A model generated the notes under the pieces. It did not search any database. It was not told the DNA's origin and saw nothing but the letters and a program-made list of their open reading frames with translations. This document shows, one piece after another, positions 4,461 to 63,345 of a stretch of DNA of 64,000 nt; within the stretch, counting starts at the first letter, position 1, and each line of letters begins with the position of its first letter. This DNA is from Incurvaria masculella (Eukaryota; Arthropoda; Insecta; Lepidoptera; Incurvariidae): NCBI GenBank assembly GCA_946894095.1, contig OX335647.2, forward strand, positions 11,922,001-11,986,000. Direction: 5' to 3'. Position numbers and translations under genes: made by a program.

Positions 4461-4800
4461 TTGGTTACATCAGAAACGCTAAAATCTCGGATGAATGACT
4501 TCGATTTCCCGCTCGGGTCGTCACAGCTCGATGAGCATGCACCTCTGTTTCCAATAACAAAAACACCCTTCTCACTCAACACAGGTTTGAGGCGGAAGAC
4601 TGTTTTCATCATGCAGCCTGTCTGATTTCTCACATGATGTCCTCGATGTTATTGTTCAAAGGCTTGGCGTTCTGGACATATAACGGGCTTCTTCTAAGTT
4701 CGTCTCAAAGCAGATATCCTGTACTATTTCTAAGAACGGAATTCCAAATTTAAAAGACCTAGCCTGGTTGCCACATGACGTGCCAGAGAATTCTAAGGAC

Positions 4801-7987: not shown

Positions 7988-8164
7988 ATGGCGCACGTTC
8001 TGGCGTCGCTGTTGTGCCTGCTGGCGGCGGCGGCGGGGCCGGCGGATGCGGGCGCGGGCGCGGCGCGCTACAACCTCACCGTGGGCTACCTCACGTCGGT
8101 GCGCGGCGCGCCCGACCGCCAGGGTCTCGCCATCTCCGGCGCGCTTACTATGGCCTTGGAAGAA
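7988..8164 (+). CDS. Gyc76C: Gyc76C-like exon 1: signal peptide and ectodomain start
   Basis: Residues 1-59. [17 protein letters not shown] is a signal peptide, followed by [13 protein letters not shown], the first strand of the ligand-binding (ANF-receptor type) fold. The donor is GTAAGA at 8165, phase 0. An AG at 7918-7919 could be a 3' splice site for a 5' UTR exon, so transcription may begin well upstream. Very GC-rich. Confidence 0.85.
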
Positions 8165-11100: not shown

Positions 11101-14100
11101 GGTAGTCAAACTACACTTGGTTACGTTACAAACTGATTGATTTGGGGATTCGATCAACTCAGTAAAGAAGAATCGGCAAAGAAACTAATTTTTTTTTCTG
11201 ACTACAATATTGATATACACATTTAGATCTAAATGCCTCTGCCAAAAAATTTTTTGGTACAACAGTTTAAGACAAAGAATAAAAGAAACAGCAACCCTCA
11301 GTGTAAATGGATTCAAAAGTGAATAAATATCAAACCTTTCTGCATTATTGCTCTTATTATTCCACAAAATGAGTATGAACTGGTGCAAGGTATTCGATAA
11401 AGATTAAATTTTAAATACATCTATTATGTACATGCAAAGTAAGTTTGTAAGGATAAGCTTCGTAATAGCTTATTTAGAGAGTAATACCAACTGAAAGAAG
11501 GTGTGACAAGGATTGAGGAGGGCACGTTGAGGTGATTCGGACATGTAGTGGTAATGATTGACGAATTTGAATGAATTGCGAATGAATGCGGAATTTAGTG
11601 GAAGTTTTGTGCCCGGGAAACCTAGGAGAACGTACCACGACCAGATTGATGAAATACTTCATAAACTGAGAGATGAAAATAAGTATTTCTAAAGAAGATG
11701 CGAAACAAATATGCGTTATACCATCACTGCATAACCCTCCGGGGAAGTGGCGTGATAGTTTATACATTGTATGTATGTATGTATTTTAAAAATGTCCAAT
11801 GAAAAATTGTCCGTGTTTTCCATCCAGTTCAATGTAGCCGTGCTCATAAAGGGGTCCTGGCATGGCACCAAATTCCTTCGGGAATGTGGTGTATTGGGCT
11901 AATATCATAACGGTAGTTGTGTGGTATTAGCCATCCATGTCGGGTCGCATAAAAAAAAAAAAAAAATCAAACACCCACATCGCTTAAAAACTTATATATA
12001 AGCAAAAGCAACATTATTAGCATTACAAAGAAGTGACTAAGCGAACTATTTACTGGACTAAAAGAAGCTTACAAACATGAGCACTGATTACCAACCTTGA
12101 ACATGATTTAGACACATCAGCCAGGCTGCCTGCATAATAAATAAATCAATCTCAGTATCATTGACTGACTGTTATTCATCGGGTGCAGGTGACAAAATCT
12201 GTAATATCGCTGCTGCGCTACTATCGCTGGCAGAAGTTCTCCATCCTGTACGAGAACCAATTCGAGATGGTGGCCCTCTCGCTCGAGAACCACGCCAAGT
12301 TGTTCAACATGACGGTTAACCACCAGCGCATAGTGCACAACAACTTCAAGTGCTGTGAGGAAAAGATGAGTTGCTGCGCGCCGGGCTTCTGGTACCAGCT
12401 GGTGCAGGATACGAAGAACCGCACGAGGAGTAAGTAGCCCGGGAATAACATTTAACATAGGTAAGAGTGAAAAAAGTTTGGACAGAATTTGGGAATTCTC
12501 TGTTTATCTAGCCATTGCTGGATGGCATTAGCCTTCTTTGCGGTTACTCGGACACACCTACAGGGTTCTTGCTAGATGCAGATATTGACATTCTAGTCGC
12601 CACCAGCTTTGAACCTCTCTCCAAAAGTCACAAAATATTCAGTGAGAAGATTTACTGTTATTATTTTAAATTTAGAACTGAAGAAGGAATATAACTTGCT
12701 ATGTTTATCTTCAACGAGCATTTTAGTCGCCTGTATATGATTGGCTTTGAACTCTGTTGGAACATGTTGTGATGAAAATTTTACTAATCTTTTCATTCAA
12801 TGCTGAACCATGGCTAGCATCTATGGTCGAACGGCTACCCACCCAGAACCTCGAGTTAACGAAGCACATAATATGTGTTACTGGAAATCTAATAAAGTAA
12901 CATGTGGTGTGTGGACAGTTTACGTGCTGCTGGGCACCACGCCCGAGCTGCACGAGCTGATGACGGCAATGGACTCCATGCAGCTGTTCCTGAAGGGCGA
13001 GTACATGGTTCTGTTCGTGGATCGAGACACCTACAGCACCAAGGAGGCTCTCAAGTACCTTTTTAGTGAGTCTATTCAATTTAAAGCTCCGCTGTGGGAC
13101 ATCCTTTAAAATACTTAGACATGCATCGTGTAAAGATTAAACAGTAAAGTTTCTGTGGATATGTGAACGCAATCAATCAAGTCATCATCATAGCTTAAAA
13201 TGGTGGAAAATCTTTCAAATTCTGGTAACAGATTCAAAATAGGGTGTGTTTGCTAGAGTGGAAGGAATTGTTAATGTGTGTGTGTGAGTAGAGACGAAGG
13301 AACAGGGTGTGCTGTCCGCCTCGTCCATGCGTCCACGGCTAGTGGTCACTTTGCGCCCAACCACCGACTCTTACGTGTGTTGCACACACACATGGATCGT
13401 TTTTCTGTATGAGAATGCGACTAATCCAGAGTGTCTGTGCTTGAGTGGGAGGAATTGCTAATATGAGTGTGTTTGCATAGGAGCGGGGGGCACTATCCGC
13501 CTCGTTTAATGTGTTCACCACTGTCTTTGAGTGGGAGGAATTCCTAATATGAGTTTGTGTACATAGAGACGGAGGACGCTATCCGCCTTGTCCTATGTGT
13601 CCGCAGCTATCAAAATCAAAATCAAATCTTTATTGCCGTTTTTTGCTTAGGGATATGTATTGGCTCACTCTTAAGAGGTACGTTAGTCAAGCTAAAACTG
13701 CCTGGGTAGGCGTGCAATATGACATAGCATGTCAAATAAAAGCATACAGTTTTAAATTCACATTAAAAATATAAAATAATCGAACACATTGTAAAATAAT
13801 TGAGTCAATATAAAGTAATAAATTACATTTCCATTAAATTGTTTAGGCAGATAAATTAACTAAACATATATAATAACCGTTGAAAACATTTAAAGATTAT
13901 ATATTCATATTTAAAAATTCGCTCACATTATAAAAACATTTTTCGATTAACCAATTATTTAATTCCTTTTAAATTTTTAATCCTTTTCCTATGCTGGCGT
14001 AGCGCCCACCCGCCGACTCTTACTTTTGGATTGTTATCTTTGAGGGAATGCCAAAACCCCAGAGTGTCTGTGCTTGAGTGGAAGGAATTGCTAATATGAG

Positions 14101-17100
14101 TGTGTGTGCATAGAGACGGAGGAGCGGGGGGCGCTGTCCGCCTCGTGTAACATGTCCGCGGAGTTCGTGCGCCGCTACAAGTCCCTGCTCGTGGTGGCGT
14201 CGCGCCCTCCCTCCGACTCCTACGACAACTTCACGGACAAGGTGCTCGACTACAACGCGCGCGCGCCCTTCAACTGGACCCTGCCGCCTATCTTCGATAA
14301 TAAGAAGAAGGTACGAAGTACGAAGGGCGAGCACACCTAGACAGTAGTACAGTTACCACCACTGAGAGTGAACTAAAATAGATAGTAAATTAAAATATGT
14401 GACAAAAATCATTTATAGAAATAATAAAAATGACTATGTCATCCCCTTCGAGTTTAACTTTCGCCAAAAGGTAGCCTATATCCTTTTCCAAGGTCCAGAC
14501 TGTCTAAATTCCGAAATTCATCAAAATTGGTTCAGCGATTTAGGGGTGACAACGCAACAGACAGATTTATCGCATTTATAATATTAGTATGGGTGTCAAC
14601 CTAGGTTTAGATTTTTTTTTTTCAAAACTATTCAATTGTCTGTTACGTGTTCACGCGTAAATTGCTGAACCAATCTTGATGAAAAAGAGAGTATGGCTAC
14701 CTTTTGTGGCGAAAATTAAACTCAGGGTGTGAAAAGGGGGATGAAAGTTTCTATGGGGAAATCGTATACATAAATTGTTTAAACATTATTCCAAAACGAC
14801 ACTGACCTGCTCCTCAGTTAGTACCGAATAAAACATTAAATATGTACAATATGCAATAAGGTATATTACACATACAATCTAGCAACGACATTTTCAAAAT
14901 AATGATTAGCTAATTCAGGTTTCCTTGGTCCATATTCAAGTTTTTGCCAACAGTTCGTGTCGATCTACGCGGCGTACTTGTACGATGCAGTCAAGCTGTA
15001 CGCGCGCTCGCTGCACACGCTGCTGGGGCCGGGCGCGCTCTCCGAGCGGGAGGTGCTCCGCGTCGCCACCAACGGCACCGGCATCATCGCCGCCATGGTG
15101 CGCAACACGCCCTACAAGAGTGAGCATTCCTACTGTCTAGCGTGTGTCCTTTGTCACCTGTACGGGGCGGTGAATCCGTGCGCGTGATATCTGTATATAT
15201 AAAAAACGGGCCAAATGCGAGTCGGATTCGTATACAAAGGGTTTCCTACCATCGTACAAGATTAAACACCAAAAAAGCAGGTTTAAAATTAAAGGCCCCT
15301 CTTTAATTTTTGAAATTTTTTATTTTACCTGTTTGCTGTTATAGCGGCAAAATCAATACACTCTCTGTGAACATTTCAGCTGCCTACCTATTACGGTTCA
15401 TGGCATACAGCCCAGTGACATACGGAGAGACGGATAGCGAAGGCTTAGTAATAAGGTTCCGTTGGCACCATTCGGGTACGGAAACCTGAAAATAAATTGC
15501 GATGCGTTAATCTTGCTAAAACTCGAGAACGGCTGAACGGATTGCACTAATTTTTATTTTGTTTTTTCACTTCAGTATCGATGTGGTTTGGAAAAAAAAT
15601 CTTCTGTATGTGGACTTGTCACCTAACTGCTTCTAAACAGCTGGACTGATTTGTGTGTGTGTTCGGGTGCGACCCTGAATGGTTTACCCGATGTTAGGTG
15701 GTGCTGTTGTCGAATTATTGACCCGAGCAGAACCGGGCACCTCAACTAGTTTTACAAAGTATTGCGTTCAGTTTGATAAGAACGTAAGCAAAACAACATT
15801 TTATTATATTTAAAAATAACAACTAATTTAGAAAATTCAAACAGTAAATATGCAGATTGATTGTCTAGCTATAATTTAAAGATCAAACTCTCCGTCTCCG
15901 GTGCTTTGTGTTTTCAAATCAGACAAATATTCATAAATTTTCTTAAAAAAGTTTTAACACAAAACCTGAGTGTCAGATATTTACCATTACAGGTTTCAAA
16001 TATAGGTAGACTATCATAGGTAGAATATCAATTCTGAAATTATTTACAAAAAATCTGCGACGGCTCGAACCGAAAAATGTTATGAATGCAATGTGTTTTG
16101 GTGCAGGCATATCGGGCGCCACCATCAAGCTGGACGAGAGCGCCGACTCGGAGGGCAACTTCTCGGTGCTGGCGCTGAAGCCGTTCAGGTTCGACAAGGA
16201 GGACGATGTCACCTGCCAGTACAACATGGTGCCCGTGGGATACTTCGCACAGGCCAACAAGACATTCCCTGTGAGTGAGTTGTCTCTCTTCCTCTCCCTC
16301 ATTTTATGTCCCCTCTCTATATCTGGACATGTAACCTAACCTATGTAAGTTCTTCTTGGGCATCCTGCCATGCCAGTTTCACCCATTTCTTCCTTTTCTT
16401 TCTCACTGTTTTTTTCTGTATCCTGTTCATGCGGCCTTAGAATAAAAACTCTTCTTTTATTTTATTTTTATTTTCTATTTGCCCTTTTCAATATATTAGG
16501 TATTTTACACATCACACACACTACACAATCTCAACTCTTTCATTCACGTACACTGCACTACAGTATACACTGGCAAACATCACCTACATCATACATATAC
16601 ATGCACCCTTTTATATGTGATTTTTACTTATTTAGATAGTATCTCAAACACGCTCATGGATACTTCGTGTAAACCTGTTATTGGCGTTAATCATAGACAT
16701 AAGCGTTTTCTAAATTTATTTGTAAATACGCTGTTTGTTAACCTTATTAAATAAATAAATAAATAAAAACTCAATTATAATTTAATTTTTGTTGCATGTA
16801 CTGAGCTAGTAGTTAGCCAACATTTCCATAACACTCGTCGCCTGCAAGTCACTACCTGTGCTCTCATAACTAGAGTACATATGACACAAACTCACAACAA
16901 AATAAATTTAGTAATGCAACCCTTACAAAAATGTCATGTCTCTCTTATGGCCCTCAATGAATAAGGTTGCGTACCGCTCATCTAGAGGATCGGATGGTTT
17001 TATTTTGTAAATTTCGACAGAGAATGTGTGCAATCCCTGGCTGTTGCCCGTTGAGCGATGGCACAAAAGCGAGAGAAGGTTTCTCTAAAGAGCATTCTCC

Positions 17101-40400: not shown

Positions 40401-43400
40401 GGTGTTAATCCCGTACTAAGTTTTGAGTCCGGCACATTAAAGTTAGTCCGCCCACTCTGTGTACGGCTGTTAGAGTTTAAAAGTACTTACCACCATGTAG
40501 GCGTCTCCGATCGTCTCCACTTTGTACACATCAAAACTTTCCAGGATGGAGTCGAAACATGTGTAAAGATCATTTAGAAAGTCCACCACCTGCAAAGAGA
40601 TAACATATTTAGATTTTCGACATGACGAATTTTCCACTGGATTGGGGATGAAATGGCTGTGGCTCGGAGTGTAGGTTAGGTTAGGTTATGATGGAAGTTG
40701 TGGTAGGTAATGATGGAATTTTGGGAGTCTGTCGAGTTTAAAAGAGTCTTTTCTTTATCTATTCCCCAATACTATGAGCGATAAACTCTCTTTATATGCT
40801 CTTAACTTCTAACTATATTTATGAAATTTTTTTGTATTCTAAAATATATTGTCGAAATCTACGTCTGTATTTTTGAATTTTTCAATATAGATTAGCGATT
40901 GGAAAATATTGGCTAATAGGTAAATATTGGAAAAACCGTTTTATTTTTTTATCCTTTTTTTTACAGAAAAATACAGATATTTACAAAACAATAAAATTAT
41001 ATGAATATATAATGAAGCTTCGGGACGCACCCCACTTATGTTGTTATTGCACTATACTTTCTTTTGTAAATTGTTTTTTTGTGGCATATTAAAGAATTTT
41101 CAATCAATCGAACGTTCGTTGCACTAAATAGCGTCCTGTGAAGTTCTTACGCGTTCTTTCGTACGTGTCGTTGAAACTCGAGGGCAACAGTAGTGAATTA
41201 GTGAGCGAACTCACTGACTGGAGCTACCGACATTCTATGTAAACGTTGATACGCCGCCCCATACCAACTAGTTTTGATTGCGACTCCGGTCCTTGAAAGT
41301 CAATTGGGTTCGTTGTTAATTCCTGCTGGACAAAAAATTACTGATCCGACGAGGCGCAGAAAAAGTCAGTTGGATCTGTAAGACGGTCAGCCCAGTGCCG
41401 TACTCTCGGCGGACATGGCGGTGAATCTGACTATGTCGCTGAAGTAGATGGTGACGCAGCTGAAGCTCTCGGGCAATGCGCTCAGGCTGCGCTTCCGCTG
41501 ATCTGCTACCTGCGCCGGAAGTGCACGCCGCACGACTCTCGCTAGCACCCACCTACAGCGGCGTGCTCTCGGCGGACATGGCGGTGAATCTGACTATGTC
41601 GCTGAAGTAGATGGTGACGCAGCTGAAGCTCTCGGGCAATGCGCTCAGGCTGCGCTTCCGCTGATCTGCTACCTGCGCCGGAAGTGCACGCCGCACGACT
41701 CTCGCTAGCACCCACCTACAGCGGCGTGCTCTCGGCGGACATGGCGGTGAATCCGACTATGTCGCTGAAGTAGATGGTGACGCAGCTGAAGCTCTCGGGC
41801 AATGCGCTCAGGCTGCGCTTCCGCTGATCTGCTACCTGCGCCGGAAGTGCACGCCGCACGACTCTCGCTAGCACCCACCTACAGCGGCGTGCTCTCGGCG
41901 GACATGGCGGTGAATCCGACTATGTCGCTGAAGTAGATGGTGACGCAGCTGAAGCTCTCGGGCAATGCGCTCAGGCTGCGCTTCCGCTGATCTGCTACCT
42001 GCGCCGGAAGTGCACGCCGCACGACTCTCGCTAGCACCCACCTGCAGCGGCGTGCTCTCGGCGGACATGGCGGTGAATCCGACTATGTCGCTGAAGTAGA
42101 TGGTGACGCAGCTGAAGCTCTCGGGCAATGCGCTCAGGCTGCGCTTCCGCTGATCTGCTACCTGCGCCGGAAGTGCACGCCGCACGACTCTCGCTAGCAC
42201 CCACCTGCAGCGGCGTGCTCTCGGCGGACATGGCGGTGAATCCGACTATGTCGCTGAAGTAGATGGTGACGCAGCTGAAGCTCTCGGGCAATGCGCTCAG
42301 GCTGCGCTTCCGCTGATCTGCTACCTGCGCCGGAAGTGCCAGCCGCACGACTCTCGCTAGCACCCACCTGCAGCGGCGTGCTCTCGGCGGACATGGCGGT
42401 GAATCCGACTATGTCGCTGAAGTAGATGGTGACGCAGCTGAAGCTCTCGGGCAATGCGCTCAGGCTGCGCTTCCGCTGATCTGCTACCTGCGCCGGAAGT
42501 GCACGCCGCACGACTCTCGCTAGCACCCACCTGCAGCGGCGTGCTCTCGGCGGACATGGCGGTGAATCCGACTATGTCGCTGAAGTAGATGGTGACGCAG
42601 CTGAAGCTCTCGGGCAATGCGCTCAGGCTGCGCTTCCGCTGATCTGCTACCTGCGCCGGAAGTGCACGCCGCACGACTCTCGCTAGCACCCACCTACAGC
42701 GGCGTGCTCTCGGCGGACATGGCGGTGAATCCGACTATGTCGCTGAAGTAGATGGTGACGCAGCTGAAGCTCTCGGGCAATGCGCTCAGGCTGCGCTTCC
42801 GCTGATCTGCTACCTGCGCCGGAAGTGCACGCCGCACGACTCTCGCTAGCACCCACCTGCAGCGGCGTGCTCTCGGCGGACATGGCGGTGAATCCGACTA
42901 TGTCGCTGAAGTAGATGGTGACGCAGCTGAAGCTCTCGGGCAATGCGCTCAGGCTGCGCTTCCGCTGATCTGCTACCTGCGCCGGAAGTGCACGCCGCAC
43001 GACTCTCGCTAGCACCCACCTACAGCGGCGTGCTCTCGGCGGACATGGCGGTGAATCCGACTATGTCGCTGAAGTAGATGGTGACGCAGCTGAAGCTCTC
43101 GGGCAATGCGCTCAGGCTGCGCTTCCGCTGATCTGCTACCTGCGCCGGAAGTGCACGCCGCACGACTCTCGCTAGCACCCACCTACAGCGGCGTGCTCTC
43201 GGCGGACATGGCGGTGAATCCGACTATGTCGCTGAAGTAGATGGTGACGCAGCTGAAGCTCTCGGGCAATGCGCTCAGGCTGCGCTTCCGCTGATCTGCT
43301 ACCTGCGCCGGAAGTGCACGCCGCACGACTCTCGCTAGCACCCACCTGCAGCGGCGTGCTCTCGGCGGACATGGCGGTGAATCCGACTATGTCGCTGAAG

Positions 43401-46400
43401 TAGATGGTGACGCAGCTGAAGCTCTCGGGCAATGCGCTCAGGCTGCGCTTCCGCTGATCTGCTACCTGCGCCGGAAGTGCCAGCCGCACGACTCTCGCTA
43501 GCACCCACCTGCAGCGGCGTGCTCTCGGCGGACATGGCGGTGAATCCGACTATGTCGCTGAAGTAGATGGTGACGCAGCTGAAGCTCTCGGGCAATGCGC
43601 TCAGGCTGCGCTTCCGCTGATCTGCTACCTGCGCCGGAAGTGCACGCCGCACGACTCTCGCTAGCACCCACCTACAGCGGCGTGCTCTCGGCGGACATGG
43701 CGGTGAATCCGACTATGTCGCTGAAGTAGATGGTGACGCAGCTGAAGCTCTCGGGCAATGCGCTCAGGCTGCGCTTCCGCTGATCTGCTACCTGCGCCGG
43801 AAGTGCCAGCCGCACGACTCTCGCTAGCACCCACCTGCAGCGGCGTGCTCTCGGCGGACATGGCGGTGAATCCGACTATGTCGCTGAAGTAGATGGTGAC
43901 GCAGCTGAAGCTCTCGGGCAATGCGCTCAGGCTGCGCTTCCGCTGATCTGCTACCTGCGCCGGAAGTGCACGCCGCACGACTCTCGCTAGCACCCACCTA
44001 CAGCGGCGTGCTCTCGGCGGACATGGCGGTGAATCCGACTATGTCGCTGAAGTAGATGGTGACGCAGCTGAAGCTCTCGGGCAATGCGCTCAGGCTGCGC
44101 TTCCGCTGATCTGCTACCTGCGCCGGAAGTGCACGCCGCACGACTCTCGCTAGCACCCACCTACAGCGGCGTGCTCTCGGCGGACATGGCGGTGAATCCG
44201 ACTATGTCGCTGAAGTAGATGGTGACGCAGCTGAAGCTCTCGGGCAATGCGCTCAGGCTGCGCTTCCGCTGATCTGCTACCTGCGCCGGAAGTGCACGCC
44301 GCACGACTCTCGCTAGCACCCACCTGCAGCGGCGTGCTCTCGGCGGACATGGCGGTGAATCCGACTATGTCGCTGAAGTAGATGGTGACGCAGCTGAAGC
44401 TCTCGGGCAATGCGCTCAGGCTGCGCTTCCGCTGATCTGCTACCTGCGCCGGAAGTGCACGCCGCACGACTCTCGCTAGCACCCACCTGCAGCGGCGTGC
44501 TCTCGGCGGACATGGCGGTGAATCCGACTATGTCGCTGAAGTAGATGGTGACGCAGCTGAAGCTCTCGGGCAATGCGCTCAGGCTGCGCTTCCGCTGATC
44601 TGCTACCTGCGCCGGAAGTGCCAGCCGCACGACTCTCGCTAGCACCCACCTGCAGCGGCGTGCTCTCGGCGGACATGGCGGTGAATCCGACTATGTCGCT
44701 GAAGTAGATGGTGACGCAGCTGAAGCTCTCGGGCAATGCGCTCAGGCTGCGCTTCCGCTGATCTGCTACCTGCGCCGGAAGTGCACGCCGCACGACTCTC
44801 GCTAGCACCCACCTGCAGCGGCGTGCTCTCGGCGGACATGGCGGTGAATCCGACTATGTCGCTGAAGTAGATGGTGACGCAGCTGAAGCTCTCGGGCAAT
44901 GCGCTCAGGCTGCGCTTCCGCTGATCTGCTACCTGCGCCGGAAGTGCACGCCGCACGACTCTCGCTAGCACCCACCTACAGCGGCGTGCTCTCGGCGGAC
45001 ATGGCGGTGAATCCGACTATGTCGCTGAAGTAGATGGTGACGCAGCTGAAGCTCTCGGGCAATGCGCTCAGGCTGCGCTTCCGCTGATCTGCTACCTGCG
45101 CCGGAAGTGCACGCCGCACGACTCTCGCTAGCACCCACCTGCAGCGGCGTGCTCTCGGCGGACATGGCGGTGAATCCGACTATGTCGCTGAAGTAGATGG
45201 TGACGCAGCTGAAGCTCTCGGGCAATGCGCTCAGGCTGCGCTTCCGCTGATCTGCTACCTGCGCCGGAAGTGCACGCCGCACGACTCTCGCTAGCACCCA
45301 CCTGCAGCGGCGTGCTCTCGGCGGACATGGCGGTGAATCCGACTATGTCGCTGAAGTAGATGGTGACGCAGCTGAAGCTCTCGGGCAATGCGCTCAGGCT
45401 GCGCTTCCGCTGATCTGCTACCTGCGCCGGAAGTGCCAGCCGCACGACTCTCGCTAGCACCCACCTGCAGCGGCGTGCTCTCGGCGGACATGGCGGTGAA
45501 TCCGACTATGTCGCTGAAGTAGATGGTGACGCAGCTGAAGCTCTCGGGCAATGCGCTCAGGCTGCGCTTCCGCTGATCTGCTACCTGCGCCGGAAGTGCA
45601 CGCCGCACGACTCTCGCTAGCACCCACCTGCAGCGGCGTGCTCTCGGCGGACATGGCGGTGAATCCGACTATGTCGCTGAAGTAGATGGTGACGCAGCTG
45701 AAGCTCTCGGGCAATGCGCTCAGGCTGCGCTTCCGCTGATCTGCTACCTGCGCCGGAAGTGCACGCCGCACGACTCTCGCTAGCACCCACCTACAGCGGC
45801 GTGCTCTCGGCGGACATGGCGGTGAATCCGACTATGTCGCTGAAGTAGATGGTGACGCAGCTGAAGCTCTCGGGCAATGCGCTCAGGCTGCGCTTCCGCT
45901 GATCTGCTACCTGCGCCGGAAGTGCACGCCGCACGACTCTCGCTAGCACCCACCTGCAGCGGCGTGCTCTCGGCGGACATGGCGGTGAATCCGACTATGT
46001 CGCTGAAGTAGATGGTGACGCAGCTGAAGCTCTCGGGCAATGCGCTCAGGCTGCGCTTCCGCTGATCTGCTACCTGCGCCGGAAGTGCACGCCGCACGAC
46101 TCTCGCTAGCACCCACCTACAGCGGCGTGCTCTCGGCGGACATGGCGGTGAATCCGACTATGTCGCTGAAGTAGATGGTGACGCAGCTGAAGCTCTCGGG
46201 CAATGCGCTCAGGCTGCGCTTCCGCTGATCTGCTACCTGCGCCGGAAGTGCACGCCGCACGACTCTCGCTAGCACCCACCTACAGCGGCGTGCTCTCGGC
46301 GGACATGGCGGTGAATCCGACTATGTCGCTGAAGTAGATGGTGACGCAGCTGAAGCTCTCGGGCAATGCGCTCAGGCTGCGCTTCCGCTGATCTGCTACC

Positions 46401-49400
46401 TGCGCCGGAAGTGCACGCCGCACGACTCTCGCTAGCACCCACCTGCAGCGGCGTGCTCTCGGCGGACATGGCGGTGAATCCGACTATGTCGCTGAAGTAG
46501 ATGGTGACGCAGCTGAAGCTCTCGGGCAATGCGCTCAGGCTGCGCTTCCGCTGATCTGCTACCTGCGCCGGAAGTGCCAGCCGCACGACTCTCGCTAGCA
46601 CCCACCTGCAGCGGCGTGCTCTCGGCGGACATGGCGGTGAATCCGACTATGTCGCTGAAGTAGATGGTGACGCAGCTGAAGCTCTCGGGCAATGCGCTCA
46701 GGCTGCGCTTCCGCTGATCTGCTACCTGCGCCGGAAGTGCACGCCGCACGACTCTCGCTAGCACCCACCTACAGCGGCGTGCTCTCGGCGGACATGGCGG
46801 TGAATCCGACTATGTCGCTGAAGTAGATGGTGACGCAGCTGAAGCTCTCGGGCAATGCGCTCAGGCTGCGCTTCCGCTGATCTGCTACCTGCGCCGGAAG
46901 TGCCAGCCGCACGACTCTCGCTAGCACCCACCTGCAGCGGCGTGCTCTCGGCGGACATGGCGGTGAATCCGACTATGTCGCTGAAGTAGATGGTGACGCA
47001 GCTGAAGCTCTCGGGCAATGCGCTCAGGCTGCGCTTCCGCTGATCTGCTACCTGCGCCGGAAGTGCACGCCGCACGACTCTCGCTAGCACCCACCTACAG
47101 CGGCGTGCTCTCGGCGGACATGGCGGTGAATCCGACTATGTCGCTGAAGTAGATGGTGACGCAGCTGAAGCTCTCGGGCAATGCGCTCAGGCTGCGCTTC
47201 CGCTGATCTGCTACCTGCGCCGGAAGTGCCAGCCGCACGACTCTCGCTAGCACCCACCTGCAGCGGCGTGCTCTCGGCGGACATGGCGGTGAATCCGACT
47301 ATGTCGCTGAAGTAGATGGTGACGCAGCTGAAGCTCTCGGGCAATGCGCTCAGGCTGCGCTTCCGCTGATCTGCTACCTGCGCCGGAAGTGCCAGCCGCA
47401 CGACTCTCGCTAGCACCTACCTGCAGCGGCGTGCTCTCGGCGGACATGGCGGTGAATCCGACTATGTCGCTGAAGTAGATGGTGACGCAGCTGAAGCTCT
47501 CGGGCAATGCGCTCAGGCTGCGCTTCCGCTGATCTGCTACCTGCGCCGGAAGTGCCAGCCGCACGACTCTCGCTAGCACCTACCTGCAGCGGCGTGCTCT
47601 CGGCGGACATGGCGGTGAATCCGACTATGTCGCTGAAGTAGATGGTGACGCAGCTGAAGCTCTCGGGCAATGCGCTCAGGCTGCGCTTCCGCTGATCTGC
47701 TACCTGCGCCGGAAGTGCCAGCCGCACGACTCTCGCTAGCACCTACCTGCAGCGGCGTGCTCTCGGCGGACATGGCGGTGAATCCGACTATGTCGCTGAA
47801 GTAGATGGTGACGCAGCTGAAGCTCTCGGGCAATGCGCTCAGGCTGCGCTTCCGCTGATCTGCTACCTGCGCCGGAAGTGCACGCCGCACGACTCTCGCT
47901 AGCACCCACCTGCAGCGGCGTGCTCTCGGCGGACATGGCGGTGAATCCGACTATGTCGCTGAAGTAGATGGTGACGCAGCTGAAGCTCTCGGGCAATGCG
48001 CTCAGGCTGCGCTTCCGCTGATCTGCTACCTGCGCCGGAAGTGCACGCCGCACGACTCTCGCTAGCACCCACCTACAGCGGCGTGCTCTCGGCGGACATG
48101 GCGGTGAATCCGACTATGTCGCTGAAGTAGATGGTGACGCAGCTGAAGCTCTCGGGCAATGCGCTCAGGCTGCGCTTCCGCTGATCTGCTACCTGCGCCG
48201 GAAGTGCCAGCCGCACGACTCTCGCTAGCACCCACCTACAGCGGCGTGCTCTCGGCGGACATGGCGGTGAATCCGACTATGTCGCTGAAGTAGATGGTGA
48301 CGCAGCTGAAGCTCTCGGGCAATGCGCTCAGGCTGCGCTTCCGCTGATCTGCTACCTGCGCCGGAAGTGCACGCCGCACGACTCTCGCTAGCACCCACCT
48401 GCAGCGGCGTGCTCTCGGCGGACATGGCGGTGAATCCGACTATGTCGCTGAAGTAGATGGTGACGCAGCTGAAGCTCTCGGGCAATGCGCTCAGGCTGCG
48501 CTTCCGCTGATCTGCTACCTGCGCCGGAAGTGCCAGCCGCACGACTCTCGCTAGCACCTACCTGCAGCGGCGTGCTCTCGGCGGACATGGCGGTGAATCC
48601 GACTATGTCGCTGAAGTAGATGGTGACGCAGCTGAAGCTCTCGGGCAATGCGCTCAGGCTGCGCTTCCGCTGATCTGCTACCTGCGCCGGAAGTGCACGC
48701 CGCACGACTCTCGCTAGCACCCACCTACAGCGGCGTGCTCTCGGCGGACATGGCGGTGAATCCGACTATGTCGCTGAAGTAGATGGTGACGCAGCTGAAG
48801 CTCTCGGGCAATGCGCTCAGGCTGCGCTTCCGCTGATCTGCTACCTGCGCCGGAAGTGCACGCCGCACGACTCTCGCTAGCACCCACCTGCAGCGGCGTG
48901 CTCTCGGCGGACATGGCGGTGAATCCGACTATGTCGCTGAAGTAGATGGTGACGCAGCTGAAGCTCTCGGGCAATGCGCTCAGGCTGCGCTTCCGCTGAT
49001 CTGCTACCTGCGCCGGAAGTGCACGCCGCACGACTCTCGCTAGCACCCACCTGCAGCGGCGTGCTCTCGGCGGACATGGCGGTGAATCCGACTATGTCGC
49101 TGAAGTAGATGGTGACGCAGCTGAAGCTCTCAGGCAGCACGCGCAGCCCGCGCTTCAGTTGCTCCGCCACCGGCGCTGGCAGCATCTCCACCAGCAGCGC
49201 CTCTGCACCACATTCACATTTGAATGCATATGTACAGCCCAGATTAAATTTATCTTTCAAGTCATACAATGTTTGATTATTGTGTTGAAACGAAATGCTT
49301 ATGTTCAAGTTGTGACTCGAGTCAGTCACTAACTGGCGTTAGAACAGAGAAGAAGCTCTTATTCTTATCAAATGGTAGTATGATTATGGCGTGGTTGCAA

Positions 49401-58400: not shown

Positions 58401-61400
58401 CTGAAATTTTCACAGAGTATGTGTTTATTTTGCCGCTATAATAACCAATAGTTTCAGTTTCAGTTTCTTTATTTCCTCCATTAGATGTATATTACACACT
58501 CGGATTCGTCATTTTTTTCCTGTCGGTTCGATTACTTCTGGCGAAGAAGAGCCGACAAGAAACTTCGTCAGGTTGGTCATTGCATTATTATTTTTTTCAG
58601 TGATACTTACAAACTAGTTTACAGTGATCGATTGATTACTACTGCTCACAAAGAACATTATTATAAGAACATTATATACATTGGTGAGGAGCAAACTCTT
58701 GACTACTATAATGACATCTTATTCTAAATTAATAGGAATTATGATCTAAATTATTCAGGTGTAAAAAGCCAAATAGGTAAAATTTCAAAGTAATAGAAAT
58801 TAAAGGGGGCCCCCATACAAAAAACCTGATTTGTTTGTGTTCAATCTTGTACGATGATACGGAACCCGAGTCCGACTCGTACTTGGCCGGTTTTTCAAAG
58901 TTCGGTTCTTAGTTACAAGAAACATCCATTTTACAACAAGACTATATGGCGTTTGCCTGAAAATGCTTTCTTATTACAATTGAATAACATTTATTTTAAA
59001 TGATCTGAATTCGTAATGGTGTTACGAGCGTACTTATATACCAGCAAATATACATACTAAGTATATACAACCAGTATTACAACTATTAGTCTACATCTTT
59101 ATCACATCTACAAGTGACGGCAGCCATCAGTCATTGTCCTTCCACAGCCTCTCCAATCAACCCCCGCGCGCCTCCAAACAAAAAGTCCATTATTCAAATG
59201 AGCTACACCAAGTAAACATGCCTTAGTAGTCGGCACTGGAACGGATTTATTGGAAAATAAATGTTTTCGGGTAAAATAAAGTACACATTTTTCCGCGGAA
59301 TTTATGCATGGATGCCTAATACCAAACCTACAGCCATGATATTAGTCCACCTCACCACGTGTACTAGTGGGACCAGTTGCTATGCCAGGAGCTTATTGCA
59401 CGGCTGCATGTAACTGGATGGAAAACACGGAGAATTTTAATTTCCCCTTTGACAGTGGTACCAAACTCGGCGGCGGGAAGTAAGGAAGGACTACCACTTA
59501 ATAAAAGCAGCCAAGTCCGAGTCGGTCTCGCACACGAAGGATTCCGTACTATCGTACAAGATTTAACACAAAATAATCACGTATTTTTTTGTAAATTAAA
59601 GGCGGGCCCCCTTTTTTAATTTTACATATTAGTTGTTATAGTAGTATATTAGTCGTAACGGCAAAATAAATACACACTCTGTGAAAATTTCAGCTGCCTA
59701 CCTCTTACGGTTCATGAGATACAACCTTGTGACGGACGGACCGACGCGCCGACAGCGGAAGCTTAGTAATAGGTTTCCGTTGGCACACTTTATGTACGGA
59801 ACCCTGAACCACGAACGACAAATCCCTTAGTTGTCTCTTAGGGGAAGAAATACACAGGGACCACTTTTATGTACACTTTTTACACGTATTATTTAACATC
59901 CCACCTTTGACTGTTCCGTTTTTCTATTTCCCTGCATTAACATATCATCATATCAAGTACGCGCCTCACGCGCCTATTTTCCGACATTTCCCACAAATCT
60001 CCGCGCATGTTTAGACTGAGTGAGAGTGATTTATCCGAGTCACGACTCTCATAACTTTTACGGCTTTGTAAGTAAATTGCCTAGTTTATGTAGGTGGGTC
60101 AATCTTCGTGTATTTCTTTGACATCCTGATTTACTGTGCACACAACCAACACGATGAACCGTGTTTGCTGGGTCCAGCCGAAATAATCTTTGGAGATAAC
60201 TTAGAAGTCGTTGCCCGATAATACGCAGTTAATTTAGAAACCATCTGTTCCGGTGGTTTGTACTATTGGATCAAGACAAACATTTGATTCAAGTCTAAAT
60301 ACAAACATTTTAAAACAGTAAGTTTACAGTGAAGAGCAAATGTACGGTGGTTTACTCTGAAACCTATATAACGTCAACCATAGATTAAAAGGGACTAATT
60401 AATTATTTATCTTTCCAGGGTTTACATTTGAAAGTAAACGACCGTACTATTGCTTAGTACTTAGACTCAGACGCTAATGCCGAACCTACACAAATTAAAT
60501 AGATAGGAATGTTTCTAGACACATATTCAGAATATAAAGTCCTGGTAAGTAGAACGTCTTTCGCGAAGGACTCACCGCCTTGAGCTCCTTCTTCATTTCC
60601 CTGGTGATGTCGGCGCTCTGCTTGTGGACGCGCTTGAGCGCGAGCACCCGGCCGCGGTACAGCACCAGCTCGCAGTACACGCCCGATTAGCGGAAGTCCA
60701 GGTCGGGGTTGGAGCTGAGCGACACCTGGCTGATGCGCCCCGGAGGGTGGCTGCCTTGCTGGAAGGACTCACCGCCTTGAGCTCCTTCTTCATTTCCCTG
60801 GTGATGTCGACGCTCTGCTTGTGGACGCGCTTGAGCGCGAGCACCCGGCCGCGGTACAGCACCAACTCGCAGTACACGCCCGAATAGCGGAAGTCCAGGT
60901 CGGGGTTGGAGCTGAGCGACACCTGGCTGGTGCGCACCGGTGGGTGGCTGCCTTGCTGGAAGAAACCACGCTTATACACCGCCCCCTACCGAACCGTGCT
61001 CACTACGAAAATATGAATGTTAACTTCGAAGGAAACCCGATTAGTCTTTGAAATAATAGGGTTATTCTCTAACGTTGCTATTTAACCGACCAGAGAATAA
61101 AAGTCTACAATTTCTTGAATTGTCTGTCTTTTCTAAAAAAAAAAAATATTTTTGGCTTGAGACAATTACATTGTCTATTATGTAAATTAGCTGTAAATTT
61201 TCCATCGAATAATTAAATAATTATATTTTTTATTAAGGATTAAAAGGTCTCTGGACAAACGGACGGAGCGACGGACATGAAGAAATCATAAAGAGTTCCT
61301 CACTAAATCTGAACAGCAAGAGCTAAGAACACGGATATCGACGAGGTTAAGAAGCACTTCTATAGAACACAATTTTATGGACTTTTAGAACAAACGGCCA

Positions 61401-62772
61401 TTATGTGTTGCAGAATCAAGACTTATTTTAAAACAATCTAGACTAGAGTGATACGTAGCAAGTAGGTCGTTGGAAATTAATATAAGCGAATCAAAATCTA
61501 TCTACCTTATTAACACTGACAAGTTATGCTTCACAGCCTGGAACCATGTCAAACTTAACAACGATTAGAAAACTGTTGAAATCAAAACTTAAATCTAGGA
61601 AAGCTGTGGACAAACACTGTACTCAACATTCACCTGATCGTCGTTTTTGAAACAATAATAATATTCTGGGCTTATCGAGTCGAATTCTGTTTACTAACGA
61701 TCTATTATAATTTCATCTCGTTTTTTCCTTTAGTCGCTTGTTTGCCCATGGCAGGAAATCCTTCCAACATGGAATATCTGGATGAAAATGATTTTATTTC
61801 AAGGGCCGTTAGGTTTCATTTACTTTAAACGGTACCATCGATTGCTCTGATACATTTTAATTCGTTTCGTGATGCCAACACTGCACGGCGAGTAGCAGAA
61901 CCGCAACTAACTTTGTCACATTTGAGAAGTTTCGCGCGCTCGTTGAAGTAGAAGAATAAATACACGTATTGTTAGATTTTTTCCCTATATACTATTTTGA
62001 TGTTGATTTTATTCATTCGAAGGGACGACTAGCTTCCTGAAAAACTTATGAGTCCTTCTAAAAGTAACAATTGAGCATTTCTTCGATTATTTACAATTTT
62101 TTATTAAATATTATTTACCTATTACATTTTAGGATATTAAATATTTTCTGGAGTCACCTCTAGATCCCCAATTAATGAGTATATGTTTGTTTAGATTTTG
62201 ACTGTTGTTCGACATATTATTTTACGTTTACGGATGATGATCCTGATGATGTCCACAGCGTGGTGGACGAAACGTCGAGCTAAGTAAGTAAGCTGAACAC
62301 TGTTTATGCGTAAACGTAAAATAATAGAATGAGTATATTTATTAAAAACTATTTAACCCATTAAGATGAACAATATTCATGAAAAAGCTGCATTATTTAG
62401 CGAACGCAAAGCGAAAATCAACCTTTTTATCTATGGCGAAAATCAATGAAAGAATATTAATTTCTGGCAGAATTTACTTTGTAGACTGGTACTTGGTTAG
62501 TTTATATATAAATATGTGACTCTCTCTCAGCAGCCCCATAGTTAGGATACTCACTTGAGAGTTGTTGTTGATGTTGTTGGAATGCTGGGCCGGATGGTCG
62601 CGGTCGGGGCGCGTGGAGCCGCGCGCGAGCCTCACGTCGCGGAAGTCGATCTTCCACAGCAGTGAGTCGAGCTCCTGCTCGTAGCGCCAGCCGCGGTACA
62701 GCGCCAGCGCCGCCAGCACGAGCAGGATCAGCGCACCGCCCGCCACGCCGGCGCCGATCTCGCCCACGTGGT
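34134..62772 (-). CDS. Second receptor guanylate cyclase (15 exons, 5' part outside window)
   Basis: Natriuretic-peptide-receptor-like guanylate cyclase, transcribed toward the first gene. Fifteen joined exons give 2426 nt with all phases matching (about 807 residues). In order: membrane helix ([15 protein letters not shown]), pseudokinase ([17 protein letters not shown] in place of HRD, DFG, APE), dimerisation helix, complete cyclase domain and tail. Metal Asp, Glu/Asp (VETIGDAY), Cys (RYCLFGD) and Asn/Arg are all present, so it should be active. The ectodomain and start codon are not in the window; they should lie beyond 64000. It could be the orthologue of one of the other fly receptor cyclases (Gyc32E, CG10738 or CG31183 types), which I cannot separate by eye. 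Three exons or exon edges are tandemly amplified, described separately. Confidence 0.88.
34817..35485 (-). pseudogene. CR1/Daphne-like LINE reverse transcriptase C-terminus
   Basis: 222-codon open frame: [17 protein letters not shown] is the end of the reverse transcriptase palm/thumb. [17 protein letters not shown] and [20 protein letters not shown] are the usual C-terminal signature of CR1/jockey-type ORF2. There is no endonuclease or YxDD motif, so it is 5'-truncated and dead. It lies in the last intron of the minus gene in the same orientation, and the unbroken frame suggests a recent insertion. Confidence 0.75.
35964..36072 (-). CDS. Second cyclase, tail exon
   Basis: [20 protein letters not shown], then [16 protein letters not shown]. 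The serine-rich [10 protein letters not shown] motif looks like a conserved tail element, possibly a phosphorylation site; the function is inference. The acceptor is GATGCAG and the donor GTAGGA. Confidence 0.82.
37657..37945 (-). CDS. Second cyclase, end of cyclase domain and basic tail
   Basis: [20 protein letters not shown], then [14 protein letters not shown] ends the catalytic fold. A lysine/arginine/alanine-rich segment follows ([15 protein letters not shown]), then [11 protein letters not shown]. The acceptor is ATTTACAG; the donor GTACAC is in phase 2. Confidence 0.88.
38384..38784 (-). mobile_element. tRNA-headed SINE, best full-length copy
   Basis: Minus strand starts GCGGCTCGTAGCCTAGTGG (A-box like), with GGTTCAATACC (B-box like). 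It runs through the shared body (GGCATGGCACCAAATTCCTT) to TTAGCCATCCATGTCGGGTC and A-rich tail. About 400 bp, same orientation as the host gene. Confidence 0.8.
39003..39101 (-). CDS. Second cyclase, catalytic exon with guanine-specific Cys
   Basis: [20 protein letters not shown], then [12 protein letters not shown]. The Cys in RYCLFGD and the Asn/Arg pair are conserved. The acceptor is TTTGCAG; the donor GTGAGT is in phase 1. An intron follows that the plus gene does not have. Confidence 0.91.
39177..39672. mobile_element. TTAA-flanked MITE with internal insertion
   Basis: TTAAGGTGGGCCTGTAAGC to GCTTACGGGCCGTTCTTAA, as in 4801 and 18672. It is lengthened by about 115 bp around 39245-39360 that contains (CAATA)n and GATGATGAATAAACAAT. 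It abuts the donor side of the exon at 39698. Confidence 0.72.
39698..39842 (-). CDS. Second cyclase, catalytic exon
   Basis: [20 protein letters not shown], then [10 protein letters not shown]. 145 nt, phases 0/1, identical in size and phase to exon 20 of the plus gene. The acceptor is GCTGCAG and the donor GTACAC. Confidence 0.9.
39892..40136. mobile_element. MITE, TCACCTAAATTGGCG family
   Basis: TCACCTAAATTCGCGTTTAAGG at the left and GGCGTAAACACCAATTTAGGTGA at the right; internally shortened relative to 6138-6458. In the minus-gene intron after the exon at 40491. Confidence 0.78.
40321..40470. mobile_element. 150-bp inverted-repeat MITE next to a splice donor
   Basis: ACAGTCGTATTCAGAGTG and CACTCTGTGTACGGCTGT are terminal inverted repeats; a related part-copy is at 25505-25645. 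Its edge is 20 bp from the donor of exon 40491-40589. Confidence 0.7.
40491..40589 (-). CDS. Second cyclase, catalytic exon with VETIGDAY
   Basis: 33 codons: [20 protein letters not shown], then [13 protein letters not shown]. It carries the guanine-selecting Glu and second metal Asp. The acceptor is TTTGCAG and the donor GTAAGT, phase 0. A small inverted-repeat element ends 20 bp beyond the donor. Confidence 0.92.
40590..41397 (-). other. Intron between array and next exon
   Basis: AT-rich, with no repeat family seen elsewhere and no coding frame. 41380-41400 is a degenerate edge of the 163-bp array. Confidence 0.5.
41398..49050 (-). repeat. 163-bp tandem array of a cyclase catalytic exon (about 47 units)
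   Basis: Near-identical units follow the functional exon 49051-49202 head to tail through its downstream intron. The motif CTCTCGGCGG falls at 41403 in the first unit and 49064 in the functional exon, 7661 bp apart, exactly 47 times 163. No net indel has accumulated. Each unit encodes, on the minus strand, [20 protein letters not shown] then [20 protein letters not shown] and STPLQ. It also keeps the GTGGGT donor; no good acceptor is visible. Because 163 is not a multiple of three, the frame shifts at every unit, so overlapping 110-aa open frames appear but no long one. The two units furthest from the exon carry a shared T variant. Confidence 0.95.
49051..49202 (-). CDS. Second cyclase, first catalytic exon (source of the 163-bp array)
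   Basis: [20 protein letters not shown], then [20 protein letters not shown] and SAESTPLQ. It holds the first metal-binding Asp. The acceptor is GGTGCAG and the donor GTGGGT. It enters in phase 1 and leaves in phase 0. The next 7.7 kb of intron is a tandem array of near-copies of this exon. Confidence 0.9.
50433..50545 (-). CDS. Second cyclase, dimerisation helix exon
   Basis: [20 protein letters not shown], then [17 protein letters not shown]. This is the coiled coil before the cyclase domain. The acceptor is GTTTCAG; the donor GTAAGC is in phase 1. Splicing to the next exon makes the expected KKKTEALL. Confidence 0.89.
50638..50772 (-). CDS. Second cyclase, pseudokinase end exon
   Basis: [20 protein letters not shown], then [19 protein letters not shown]. 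The acceptor is CTGCGCAG. The donor is read as GTCGGT after GGC AT, the position matching the plus-gene donor, which gives ...LRKGM. A GC donor two bases upstream (GCATGT) would also keep frame and give ...LRKG, so this end is uncertain by two or three bases. Confidence 0.8.
51525..51720 (+). mobile_element. SINE with 5S-like head (5' part)
   Basis: GCCTTCGGTAGCTCAGTGTG could be an A-box. TCTGGATGGGTGACCATTTT resembles the 5S rRNA C-box region. After CACGTAAAACTGTAGGTCCC it matches the body of the tRNA-headed SINE family. Confidence 0.5.
51788..51936. mobile_element. MITE with inverted-repeat ends (copy 2)
   Basis: GGGCTGAGTGCACGAAAAGAC on the left and GTCTCTTCGTGCAATCGGGGC on the right; the internal GTGACGTGTTTGAACATTGA matches copies 1 and 3. 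Confidence 0.7.
52196..52421 (-). CDS. Second cyclase, pseudokinase C-lobe exon
   Basis: [20 protein letters not shown], then [20 protein letters not shown] and [18 protein letters not shown] and GDVYSF motifs are present, with an alanine/glycine-rich insert between them. It enters in phase 1 (acceptor GATCAG) and leaves in phase 2 (donor GTAGGT). Very GC-rich. Confidence 0.86.
52640..52870. repeat. Internally repetitive segment
   Basis: Holds two copies of a CCCAACCATATGTATTGTA-like phrase (52768 and 52832) and two of GGGCCATC. Looks like the body of a small non-autonomous element; family not recognised. Confidence 0.35.
53040..54016 (+). pseudogene. Jockey/RTE-like LINE 3' end with GAATTT tail
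   Basis: Frame 53149-53457 reads [20 protein letters not shown], then [20 protein letters not shown], typical of the last ORF2 residues of non-LTR elements. A 3' UTR follows, with AATAAAG and a (GAATTT)n tail at 53986-54016. 5'-truncated, opposite to the host gene. Confidence 0.72.
54228..54496 (+). mobile_element. GACG-microsatellite element (copy 4)
   Basis: CACCAGGTGCGAGTCGGACTCG to TTTGGGTACGGAACCCTAAA, (GACG)n at 54412-54446. It ends 45 bp from the donor of exon 54541-54712. Confidence 0.78.
54541..54712 (-). CDS. Second cyclase, pseudokinase DFG exon
   Basis: [20 protein letters not shown], then [29 protein letters not shown] replaces HRDLKxxN, and DFG is kept. The acceptor is TTTGCAG; the donor GTGAGT is in phase 1. 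It combines what are exons 14 and 15 in the plus gene. Confidence 0.9.
54850..55215 (-). mobile_element. SINE with 5S-like head (complete)
   Basis: The minus-strand head contains GAGCGCGGTTGGGTTCTGG and ATGAGTGACC. It then has the shared body (CGTAAAACTGTAGGTCCCC, GGATGGAAAACACGG region) and tail. It shows the 5S-like head joined to the common SINE body. Confidence 0.6.
55255..55480 (-). pseudogene. Short jockey-like LINE relic
   Basis: TTCGGAATGTCGACAGTGAA, TGAGCGATTGTAAAAAGGGA matches the region 16990-17070 of the LINE copy in the plus gene. Too decayed to translate. Confidence 0.45.
55646..55806. mobile_element. MITE with inverted-repeat ends (copy 3)
   Basis: GCCCGATTGCACGAAGAGACG and TCCTTTCGTGCACTCAGCCC are inverted ends; the interior matches window positions 1-142. 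Confidence 0.72.
56142..56213 (-). CDS. Second cyclase, pseudokinase exon
   Basis: 72 nt, [20 protein letters not shown] then DIIR. Same length and phase as exon 13 of the plus gene. The acceptor is GCCGCAG and the donor GTAAGC. Confidence 0.88.
56520..56785 (+). mobile_element. SINE (plus orientation, partial head)
   Basis: CATGTAAAACTGTAGGTCCC, CCTACTAGGTGGTAGGGTTA, TTCAATGTAACCGTGCTCAT and tail TTAGCCATCTATGTCCAGTT before A-run. Confidence 0.72.
57073..57622. mobile_element. TTAA-type MITE, complete (550 bp)
   Basis: TTAAGGTGGCCCAACCCG at 57073 and CGGGTTGGGCCACCTTAA at 57605 are perfect inverted repeats including TTAA, as expected of piggyBac-type elements. Interior non-coding. A truncated relative is at 23881. 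Confidence 0.82.
57894..57998 (-). CDS. Second cyclase, pseudokinase exon
   Basis: 35 codons: [20 protein letters not shown], then [12 protein letters not shown]. It is homologous to the second part of exon 12 of the plus gene. The acceptor is TATGGCAG and the donor GTGCCC; the donor is weak, but it is the one that keeps phase and homology. Confidence 0.86.
58283..58900 (-). mobile_element. GACG-microsatellite element (copy 5), split by a LINE tail
   Basis: CATACCCAAAGGGTGAAAAC to ATAGCGGCAAAA complement (58440), then resumes at about 58765 with AAATAGGTAAAATTTC and ends GTACTTGGCCGGTTTTT. The gap is filled by the insertion listed next. Confidence 0.78.
58448..58762 (-). mobile_element. LINE 3' end with GAAACT tail, nested
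   Basis: Minus strand ends in (GAAACT)n (AGTTTCAGTTTCAGTTTC on plus). It contains the GCCGACAAGAAACTTCGTC phrase in a 3' UTR-like context. Inserted into the preceding element, so it is younger. Confidence 0.65.
59300..59490 (-). mobile_element. SINE body fragment
   Basis: CATGGATGCCTAATACCAAA, GTTGCTATGCCAGGAGCTTA and CTGGATGGAAAACACGGAGA; head absent. Confidence 0.6.
59505..59807 (+). mobile_element. GACG-microsatellite element (copy 6)
   Basis: AAAGCAGCCAAGTCCGAGTCG to TTATGTACGGAACCCTGAA, with a short degenerate GACGG run. Confidence 0.75.
60576..60758 (-). pseudogene. Duplicate pseudokinase exon with nonsense codon
   Basis: Same 183-nt exon as 60773-60955, offset by 197 bp, with intact GTGAGT donor and CTTCCAG acceptor. 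TAT in FRYSGVY has become TAA (bases 60687-60689). Other differences are few (PGR-I for PVR-T, A for V after KQS). The 14 bp between the copies start GTGAGT and end CCAG, too short to be an intron. Inclusion would truncate the receptor just after the membrane. Confidence 0.85.
60773..60955 (-). CDS. Second cyclase, pseudokinase N-lobe exon (intact copy)
   Basis: A 61-codon exon: [20 protein letters not shown], then [20 protein letters not shown] and [18 protein letters not shown] matches the kinase VAIK strand. The acceptor is TCTTCCAG and the donor GTGAGT, phase 0. It is followed after only 14 bp by a duplicate with a stop codon (60576-60758), so this copy should be the one used. Confidence 0.86.
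60956..62554 (-). other. Intron between membrane exon and pseudokinase exon
   Basis: 1.6 kb, AT-rich. It holds one clear structure: an 18-bp inverted repeat (TATTATTTTACGTTTACG at 62216 and its complement ending 62329) enclosing CGTGGTGGACGAAACGTCG, a small hairpin element. Nothing else recognised. Confidence 0.5.
62555..62772 (-). CDS. Second cyclase, membrane-spanning exon
   Basis: [20 protein letters not shown] begins the membrane helix, followed by [20 protein letters not shown] and an asparagine-rich end (NNINNNSQ). The acceptor is CCCGCAG and the donor GTGAGT; it enters in phase 1 and leaves in phase 0. Four upstream copies or part-copies with a 162-bp period stay open in the same frame, so an upstream acceptor could be used instead. 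Confidence 0.85.
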
Positions 62773-63345
62773 CTGCGGGCACGACCGCATTGGTGACTAA
62801 GTAATAGGTAGACTTCCACAGAAGCGAGTCGAGCTCCTGCTCGTAGCGCCAGCCGCGGTACAGTGCCAGCGCCGCCATCACGAGCAGGATCAACGCACCG
62901 CCCGCCACGCCGGCGCCGATCTCGCCCAAGTGGTCTGCCGTCACGACCACATTGGTGACTAAGTAATAGGTAGACTTCCACAGAAGCGAGTCGAGCTCCT
63001 GCTCGTAGCGCCAGACGCGGTACAGTGCCAGCGCCGCCAGCACGAGCAGGATCAAAGCACCGCCCGCCACGCCGGCGCCGATCTCGCCCACGTGGTCTGC
63101 CGGCACGAACACATTGGTGACTAAGTAATAGGTAGACTTCCACAGAAGCGAGTCGAGCTCCTGCTCGTAGCGCCAGACGCGGTACAGTGCCAGCACCGCC
63201 AGCACGAGCAGGATCAACGCACCGCCCGCCACGCCGGCGCCGATCTCGCCCACGTGGTCTGCCGGCACGAACACATTGGTGACTAAGTAATAGGTAGACT
63301 TCCACAGAAGCGAGTCGAGCTCCTGCTCGTAGCGCCAGCGCAGCT
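62773..63345 (-). repeat. Tandem copies of the membrane-spanning exon, 162-bp period
   Basis: Three full copies and a truncated fourth of the membrane exon lie upstream of the one at 62555-62772. The landmark GACTAAGTAATAGG recurs at 62795, 62957, 63119 and 63281. Each unit has about 40 bp of the upstream intron end (reading STYYLVTN), the acceptor CGGCAG, the helix and LDSLLWK, but not the exon's donor. 162 is a multiple of three, and the minus frame is open from 63274 to the real exon. Copies differ by a few bases (VW/GW, DHV/DHL). The outermost copy lacks its 5' part and joins unrelated DNA at about 63340. Confidence 0.92.

Follow-up and report, generated by a model that had tools for sequence, protein, structure and literature searches.

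We analyzed a 64-kb window of the genome of the moth Incurvaria masculella (C7:11922001-11986000; coordinates below refer to this whole stretch unless another locus is named), taken from a single assembly of 552 Mb in 31 contigs. In this window the intron that follows the first catalytic exon of a receptor guanylate cyclase gene, here called RGC-A, is filled by a 163-bp tandem array derived from that exon. We consider it likely that the array is a minisatellite of the kind termed 'mirage' in amphioxus, that it arose by local tandem duplication and then unequal crossing-over, and that it is the largest of a class of duplications that recurs in this genome. The available part of the amphioxus report describes mirages as minisatellite-like tandem duplications of exon-intron boundaries, which may involve either boundary (PMC3087553). 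The moth array would have started at the DNA level, with a local tandem duplication that took in the 3' end of the catalytic exon, the adjoining 5' splice site and the first part of the intron, and later unequal crossing-over would have expanded it to about 47 copies. The gene would still be functional, with the genuine acceptor and the first of the donors used in splicing, and the intronic copies (decoys) would not provide a convincing exon of their own.

The host intron (40590..49050, minus strand; 8,461 bp, phase 0) begins directly after the residues STPLQ, and about 90% of it is filled by the array. Tandem Repeats Finder (TRF) placed the array at 41399..49136 on the minus strand, including the 3' part of the exon itself, with 47.5 head-to-tail copies, a period of 163, a 99% match and 0% indels. 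Measured in 163-bp steps, identity at a lag of 163 is 0.975-1.0 across the array and at background level outside it. Each unit joins ~133 nt from the 3' end of the exon to the 30 nt of intron that follow, and hence carries a 5' splice site. A chance origin of the array is excluded. Consistent with the first-pass annotation of the window, the array is intronic, derives from the catalytic exon and keeps 47 exact 163-bp periods. The few recurring substitutions described there were also found. In 48 register windows counted from 49136 downwards in the minus orientation, 7 of the 163 columns vary, and three variants are recurrent: a C/T change in the final codon of the exon, which turns CAG into TAG (18 of 47 scorable windows), G/A at donor position +3 (4/47) and GT/TG (13/47). 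The remaining variants are limited to the exon's own window (one) or to two distal units, and interior units carry no private substitutions in these 48 windows. AGGT is invariant in all 47 windows that reach the site, and its neighbours vary, with C/T before the AG and the change at donor +3. We refine the proposed number of about 47 near-copies after the exon to 46 complete decoys, 28 ending in CAG and 18 in TAG, plus one truncated decoy.

A search of the assembly with the exon, in which only the best-ranking candidates were scored, returned the C7 array and two weak hits; no second locus with the array was present among these candidates, and the weak hits are paralogous cyclase exons on contigs C15 and C1. 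The original label 'satellite' is overstated for a 7.7-kb array at a single locus, since satellite DNA forms long arrays at several or heterochromatic loci and the C7 array stands alone among the best candidates of this one genome; mirage-type minisatellite fits better. Three other sources of the array were rejected. The diverged part of the unit resembles RGC-A's own exon and not that of another paralogue, the presence of intron sequence in the units speaks against an RNA intermediate, and a transposable element would have left other copies among the best candidates of the search, where none was found.

The host gene was assembled from eleven exons on the minus strand. These are the transmembrane exon (62772-62555, formed by the last unit of a 162-bp array and a unique 3' part; the transmembrane segment was recognized by eye), the kinase-homology exon (60955-60773), exons at 57998-57894, 56213-56142, 54712-54541, 52421-52196, 50772-50638 and 50545-50433, the functional first catalytic exon (49202-49051; 152 nt, ending in CTGCAG with the donor CAG/GTGGGT), the next catalytic exon (40589-40491) and the one following it (39842-39698). 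Together they give a single open frame, 539 residues long, that has both cyclase and kinase matches and in which the authentic catalytic exon is kept in frame at the edge of the array. With a further exon at about 39.06 kb included, the protein matches the Pfam family Guanylate_cyc (1.3e-54) and kinase families (best 3.5e-28), and its cyclase part matches the solved structure of ANP receptor 1 (2.3e-79). Among the best 120 of 3060 homologues, the closest, aligned over the whole query at 74% identity, comes from the butterfly Iphiclides podalirius, and the moths Diatraea, Eumeta and Loxostege give 74-79% over 77% of the query. The best matches named guanylate cyclase 32E are from Tribolium (65%) and Temnothorax (63%), with others so named mostly lower. 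Pfam, homologues and the structure match agree with the earlier assignment to the receptor guanylate cyclases, and RGC-A is a Gyc32E-like member whose kinase-homology and cyclase domains accompany the transmembrane segment and a weakly matched extracellular part. The window holds two receptor guanylate cyclase genes arranged tail to tail, at 7989-33580 (plus strand; RGC-B) and at 39-63 kb (minus strand; RGC-A).

To compare the exon with the array we aligned it without gaps to the adjacent unit over 152 sites. All 13 mismatches fall within the first 49 of these sites and none in the other 103, a clustering with a probability of 1.2e-7 under random placement. The last mismatch lies at exon position 71, and from there on 81 nt of exon and 30 nt of intron are identical. 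The upstream part of the unit is decayed, and the downstream part, including the intron, is common to the functional exon. The first-pass annotation had correctly placed the differences between unit and exon in the first half of the exon. Its conclusion that homogenization occurs among units but not with the exon does not agree with the identity of the last 81 exon and first 30 intron nt to the adjacent unit. Because the mismatches are all confined to the first 49 sites, the 3' part of the exon appears to join in exchange with the array. The simplest reading would be exon-array exchange, by crossing-over or conversion, that keeps re-copying the 3' part of the exon, with selection removing those exchanges that import the decayed upstream part. 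A similar gradient is seen in a second array on C15, described below, where decoys 1-5 (5/5) have 21-24 mismatches in the upstream 45 sites and 1-5 in the next 73.

The shared part of exon and array includes a protein motif at which six close homologues, four Lepidoptera among them, read PESYDSVTIYF. RGC-A differs there, and its exon is equal to the array. Among the 103 homologues that could be scored at the motif residues (17 of the best 120 of 3060 were unscored), F is present in 91 and C in 31, and S instead of D is rare (1 of those 103). Deviation from residues invariant in the six homologues is not raised in the array-bearing cyclase exon (4/49) relative to comparison exons without arrays (1/39 to 6/32); the transmembrane and K1 array exons, with too few homologue columns, were left out of this count. 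These counts weaken the reading that the array has altered the enzyme; a transfer of amino-acid changes from array to exon is possible.

Further evidence for unequal crossing-over is provided by the order of the units. Typed by the recurring variants, the array reads AABCAEBACCCDBDBDABBABADAABADAABBDBDABBABADAABBB plus a truncated last unit, and a 14-unit word is repeated at a lag of 19 units (3,097 bp). In 2,000 shuffled unit orders the longest repeated word had a mean length of 5.05 and none reached 14, and the unit match at lag 19 is 0.643, versus 0.283 expected. A repeated block of this type is the trace expected of unequal crossing-over with multi-unit offsets and is not easily invented by a collapsed or polished assembly. 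Concerted evolution that excludes the edge units is also seen, as a slight effect at C7, where two columns vary only in two distal units, and in the C15 array, whose last two units are degenerate. As interior units lack private substitutions, the present array must be young. The mutation rate is about 3e-9 per site and generation in Heliconius, which would put the age of the array at some 1e5 generations or less.

The rival that survives best, and which we nevertheless regard as improbable, is that one or a few copies were inflated or homogenized by the assembler or polisher. The variation in only 7 of 163 columns would be explained in this way, the 19-unit block duplication could be an assembler loop, and an amphioxus mirage was aberrantly assembled in a draft, according to the available part of that report (PMC3087553). 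Unlike the product of collapse or polishing, however, the 47 units fall into four types plus one recombinant, and their order is for the most part non-periodic. The same assembly also contains more diverged arrays of similar kind at other exons, and at 7.7 kb the array is short compared with typical long reads.

The first-pass annotation had implied that the array was unique. This was not upheld, as a paralogue on C15 carries its own array of the homologous exon and exon-edge copies recur in the sequence sampled. The C15 array (L009, G000:C15:3298000-3307500, positions 2701-4775) has 13.7 copies of 152 bp at 95% match, with 13 successive spacings of exactly 152, unit types that recur in threes and a degenerate distal end. 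It lies in an intron at the same position, as shown by the next C15 exon (VVEVLNDLYTCCDS...). An intron directly after STPLQ or STPMQ is present in both array-bearing paralogues (RGC-A and C15; L009, L033); RGC-B and the C1 paralogue lack it. The C15 decoys read FSNIVGY in 6 of the 11 caught by a motif scan, and the exon keeps FSDIVGF.

Within RGC-A itself, the kinase-homology exon is duplicated whole with minimal splice sites (60565..60962, minus strand; 197 bp x 2, 97%), the 5' copy (60773-60955) being open and the 3' copy containing a stop. The transmembrane exon carries an acceptor-spanning array (62651..63339, minus strand; 4.3 copies of 162 bp, or 54 codons, 96%) with one frame open throughout. 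Four stop-free, in-frame copies of the 5' part of this exon, with acceptors, were noted at 62477-63346 on the minus strand, where use of an earlier acceptor would yield a protein in which the transmembrane segment occurs more than once. An upstream exon has an array of 228 bp x 4.9 (L011). This exon is probably ligand-binding, because a weak match to ANF_receptor (E 0.0056, below the Pfam cut-off) sits in the exon after it.

In RGC-B, all on the plus strand, we found a donor-spanning duplication of the first coding exon (8121..8255; 67 bp x 2, 89%), a degenerate donor-spanning copy of the next exon (8486..8911; offset 219 bp, 65-80%) and three degenerate acceptor-region copies (13241..14150) that precede the exon located at ~14128-14311. 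Towards the 3' end of this gene a coding-like stretch occurs twice (30297-30416 and 32836-32955; 2.5 kb apart, 91.7%). In a self-comparison of the window for local direct duplications of 40 or more in length at offsets of 40-700, all six duplications overlap exons, with the 163-bp array itself among them; the 30 exons make up 8.4% of the window and 6 of them are hit. Circular shifts gave a mean overlap of 2.38 (p = 0.0008). Over all cases seen, the edge type as judged by eye was donor in 11, acceptor in 4 (L010 and L011 uncertain) and whole exon in 1. We suggest that donor-spanning copies place decoy donors downstream of the true donor and that acceptor-spanning copies place decoy acceptors upstream of the true acceptor, which would be harder to tolerate. 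The sole large acceptor array, that of the transmembrane exon, repeats every 54 codons and keeps its frame open throughout.

A random sample of twenty 10-kb pieces (200 kb) from C1, C7 and C15 contained 17 local tandem clusters, six of which look exon-derived by eye. Pfam identified three of these as a P450 exon (281 bp x 3.8; PF00067, 1.7e-13), an ABC-transporter exon (PF00005, 8.5e-10) and an HMG-box exon (PF00505, 2.9e-15) of a gene that we take to be capicua-like. The other 11 clusters, left out of translation, have guanine-cytosine (GC) contents of 0.28-0.47. One piece (L031, G000:C1:5768231-5778230) has three exon-like stretches, at 2005-2225, 5590-5879 and 8845-9217, including the HMG-box exon; behind each lies a degenerate copy, with offsets of 162, 167 and 179 bp. 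Six cases per 200 kb would extrapolate to roughly 16,000 genome-wide (Poisson range about 6,000-36,000), a rough figure from three contigs, judged by eye, with three of the six cases from one piece. Our tentative proposal is that exon-edge tandem duplication occurs throughout this genome, with a count in the region of ten thousand events if the sampled pieces are representative, that it steadily lengthens introns and supplies decoy exon ends able to exchange with functional exons, so that an intronic array may in part write the coding sequence from which it came, and that such duplication perhaps creates introns. The last part is considered because the STPLQ/VV intron is present in the two array-bearing paralogues and absent in the two without arrays. 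We think this broad proposal doubtful as a whole, and distinctly less probable than a mirage-type origin of the RGC-A array.

Several observations weigh against parts of our interpretation. Polishing of the assembly could have made the 47 units look more nearly identical than they are. Exchange with the exon may not be a general rule, as mismatches in the P450 array are spread evenly over the exon halves (14 + 13 in copy 1, 13 + 11 in copy 2), with only 2 mismatches in 36 intronic nt in each of these copies. Three of the six exon cases in the random sample (one in L030, two in L031) have no Pfam match and are identified by open frame, GC content and splice-like context only, and the random clusters were classified, and the RGC-B exon limits set, by eye. 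The enrichment at exons is partly a detection bias, since a constrained exon remains alignable for longer. Finally, a pseudo-acceptor within the unit has a pyrimidine content of 0.56, which by this very crude measure is within the range of the gene's real acceptors (0.39-0.67), so that some use of decoys as exons is possible.

We also considered whether the array serves the gene. A regulatory role under selection, whether as enhancer, source of small RNAs or buffer for splicing, has indirect points in its favour in the large size of the array and the AGGT kept in every complete decoy, but we judge it quite unlikely. Recent expansion accounts for the homogeneity, comparable arrays are found at the unrelated P450, ABC-transporter and HMG-box exons, and as DNA the unit folds in an ordinary way (z -0.98). 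Least probable, and very unlikely in our view, is a bank of selectable or poison exons in which each unit acts as a 120-nt in-frame exon (VADQ...STPLQ, from AG/GTAGCA to CAG/GTGGGT): the frame, the 43-nt AG/GT spacing and the acceptor-like pyrimidine content would allow it, but 18 of the 46 complete decoys end in TAG, an inter-unit intron of 43 nt is too short for splicing and would permit one unit at a time at best, inclusion of a unit would duplicate part of the catalytic core, and the units vary so little that there is no repertoire to choose from. Most likely, the array itself serves no function.

While its anatomy is striking, the array represents the extreme of a recurrent class and stands close to a kind already described, and its interest lies in the process. 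If such duplication is pervasive in the moth, arrays that range from 2 to about 47 copies, and from near identity to advanced decay, form a natural age series in which intron growth or origin by local duplication can be tested, as can the way in which splicing ignores dozens of identical decoy donors. The same series bears on the question of how a catalytic exon can persist while exchanging sequence with dozens of non-coding copies, of which 18 contain a stop codon. Exon-edge arrays also call for caution in annotation, as they invite false exons and mis-assembly.

Among known systems, tandem exon duplication and mutually exclusive exons are similar in that exon-derived copies adjoin within a gene, as far as the available part of the source describes them (PMC9013439). 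The array differs in having partial copies without spliceable introns of their own (43-nt spacing) and a terminal stop in 18/46. Satellite DNA shares the head-to-tail units, nucleosome-like length, high homogeneity and higher-order block; the array differs as one 7.7-kb locus within a gene, with no other array among the best candidates. Intron gain by tandem duplication of an AGGT-containing segment, for which the accessible portion of one report gives a case in potato RdRp (PMC4974935), likewise involves local duplication with AG/GT, and the host intron lies at such a site. In contrast to that mechanism, the 3' end of the RGC-A host intron is unlike the exon.

The closest resemblance is to the amphioxus mirages. 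Those described in the available part of the report are in the globin genes BflGb6 (units of 150-160 bp, with 3 and 6 copies in two haplotypes) and BflGb9 (157 bp) and in Adh3; many units have AG/GT signals, regular splicing was inferred from reverse transcription PCR, concerted evolution excludes the units at the cluster edge, unequal crossing-over was proposed, and a mirage-based model of intron gain was put forward (PMC3087553). Further lancelet mirages, in TnC and PGBD5, are mentioned in the accessible text of a later paper (PMC3902484). No insect case was recognized in the literature listings searched, several of them incomplete, which is not proof of absence. Set against these partial accounts, the moth array is alike in its boundary-spanning units, overlapping unit length, AG/GT in the units and exclusion of the edges. 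It differs in having about 47 copies, versus 3 and 6 in BflGb6, in its arthropod host and in the identity of the 3' part of the functional exon to the array; in the moth, moreover, the homologous exon is affected in two paralogues, and several unrelated genes of one genome are involved. Judged from its sequence, the RGC-A array has the structural features of the amphioxus mirage kind and differs from it in size, host group, participation of the exon and apparent pervasiveness.

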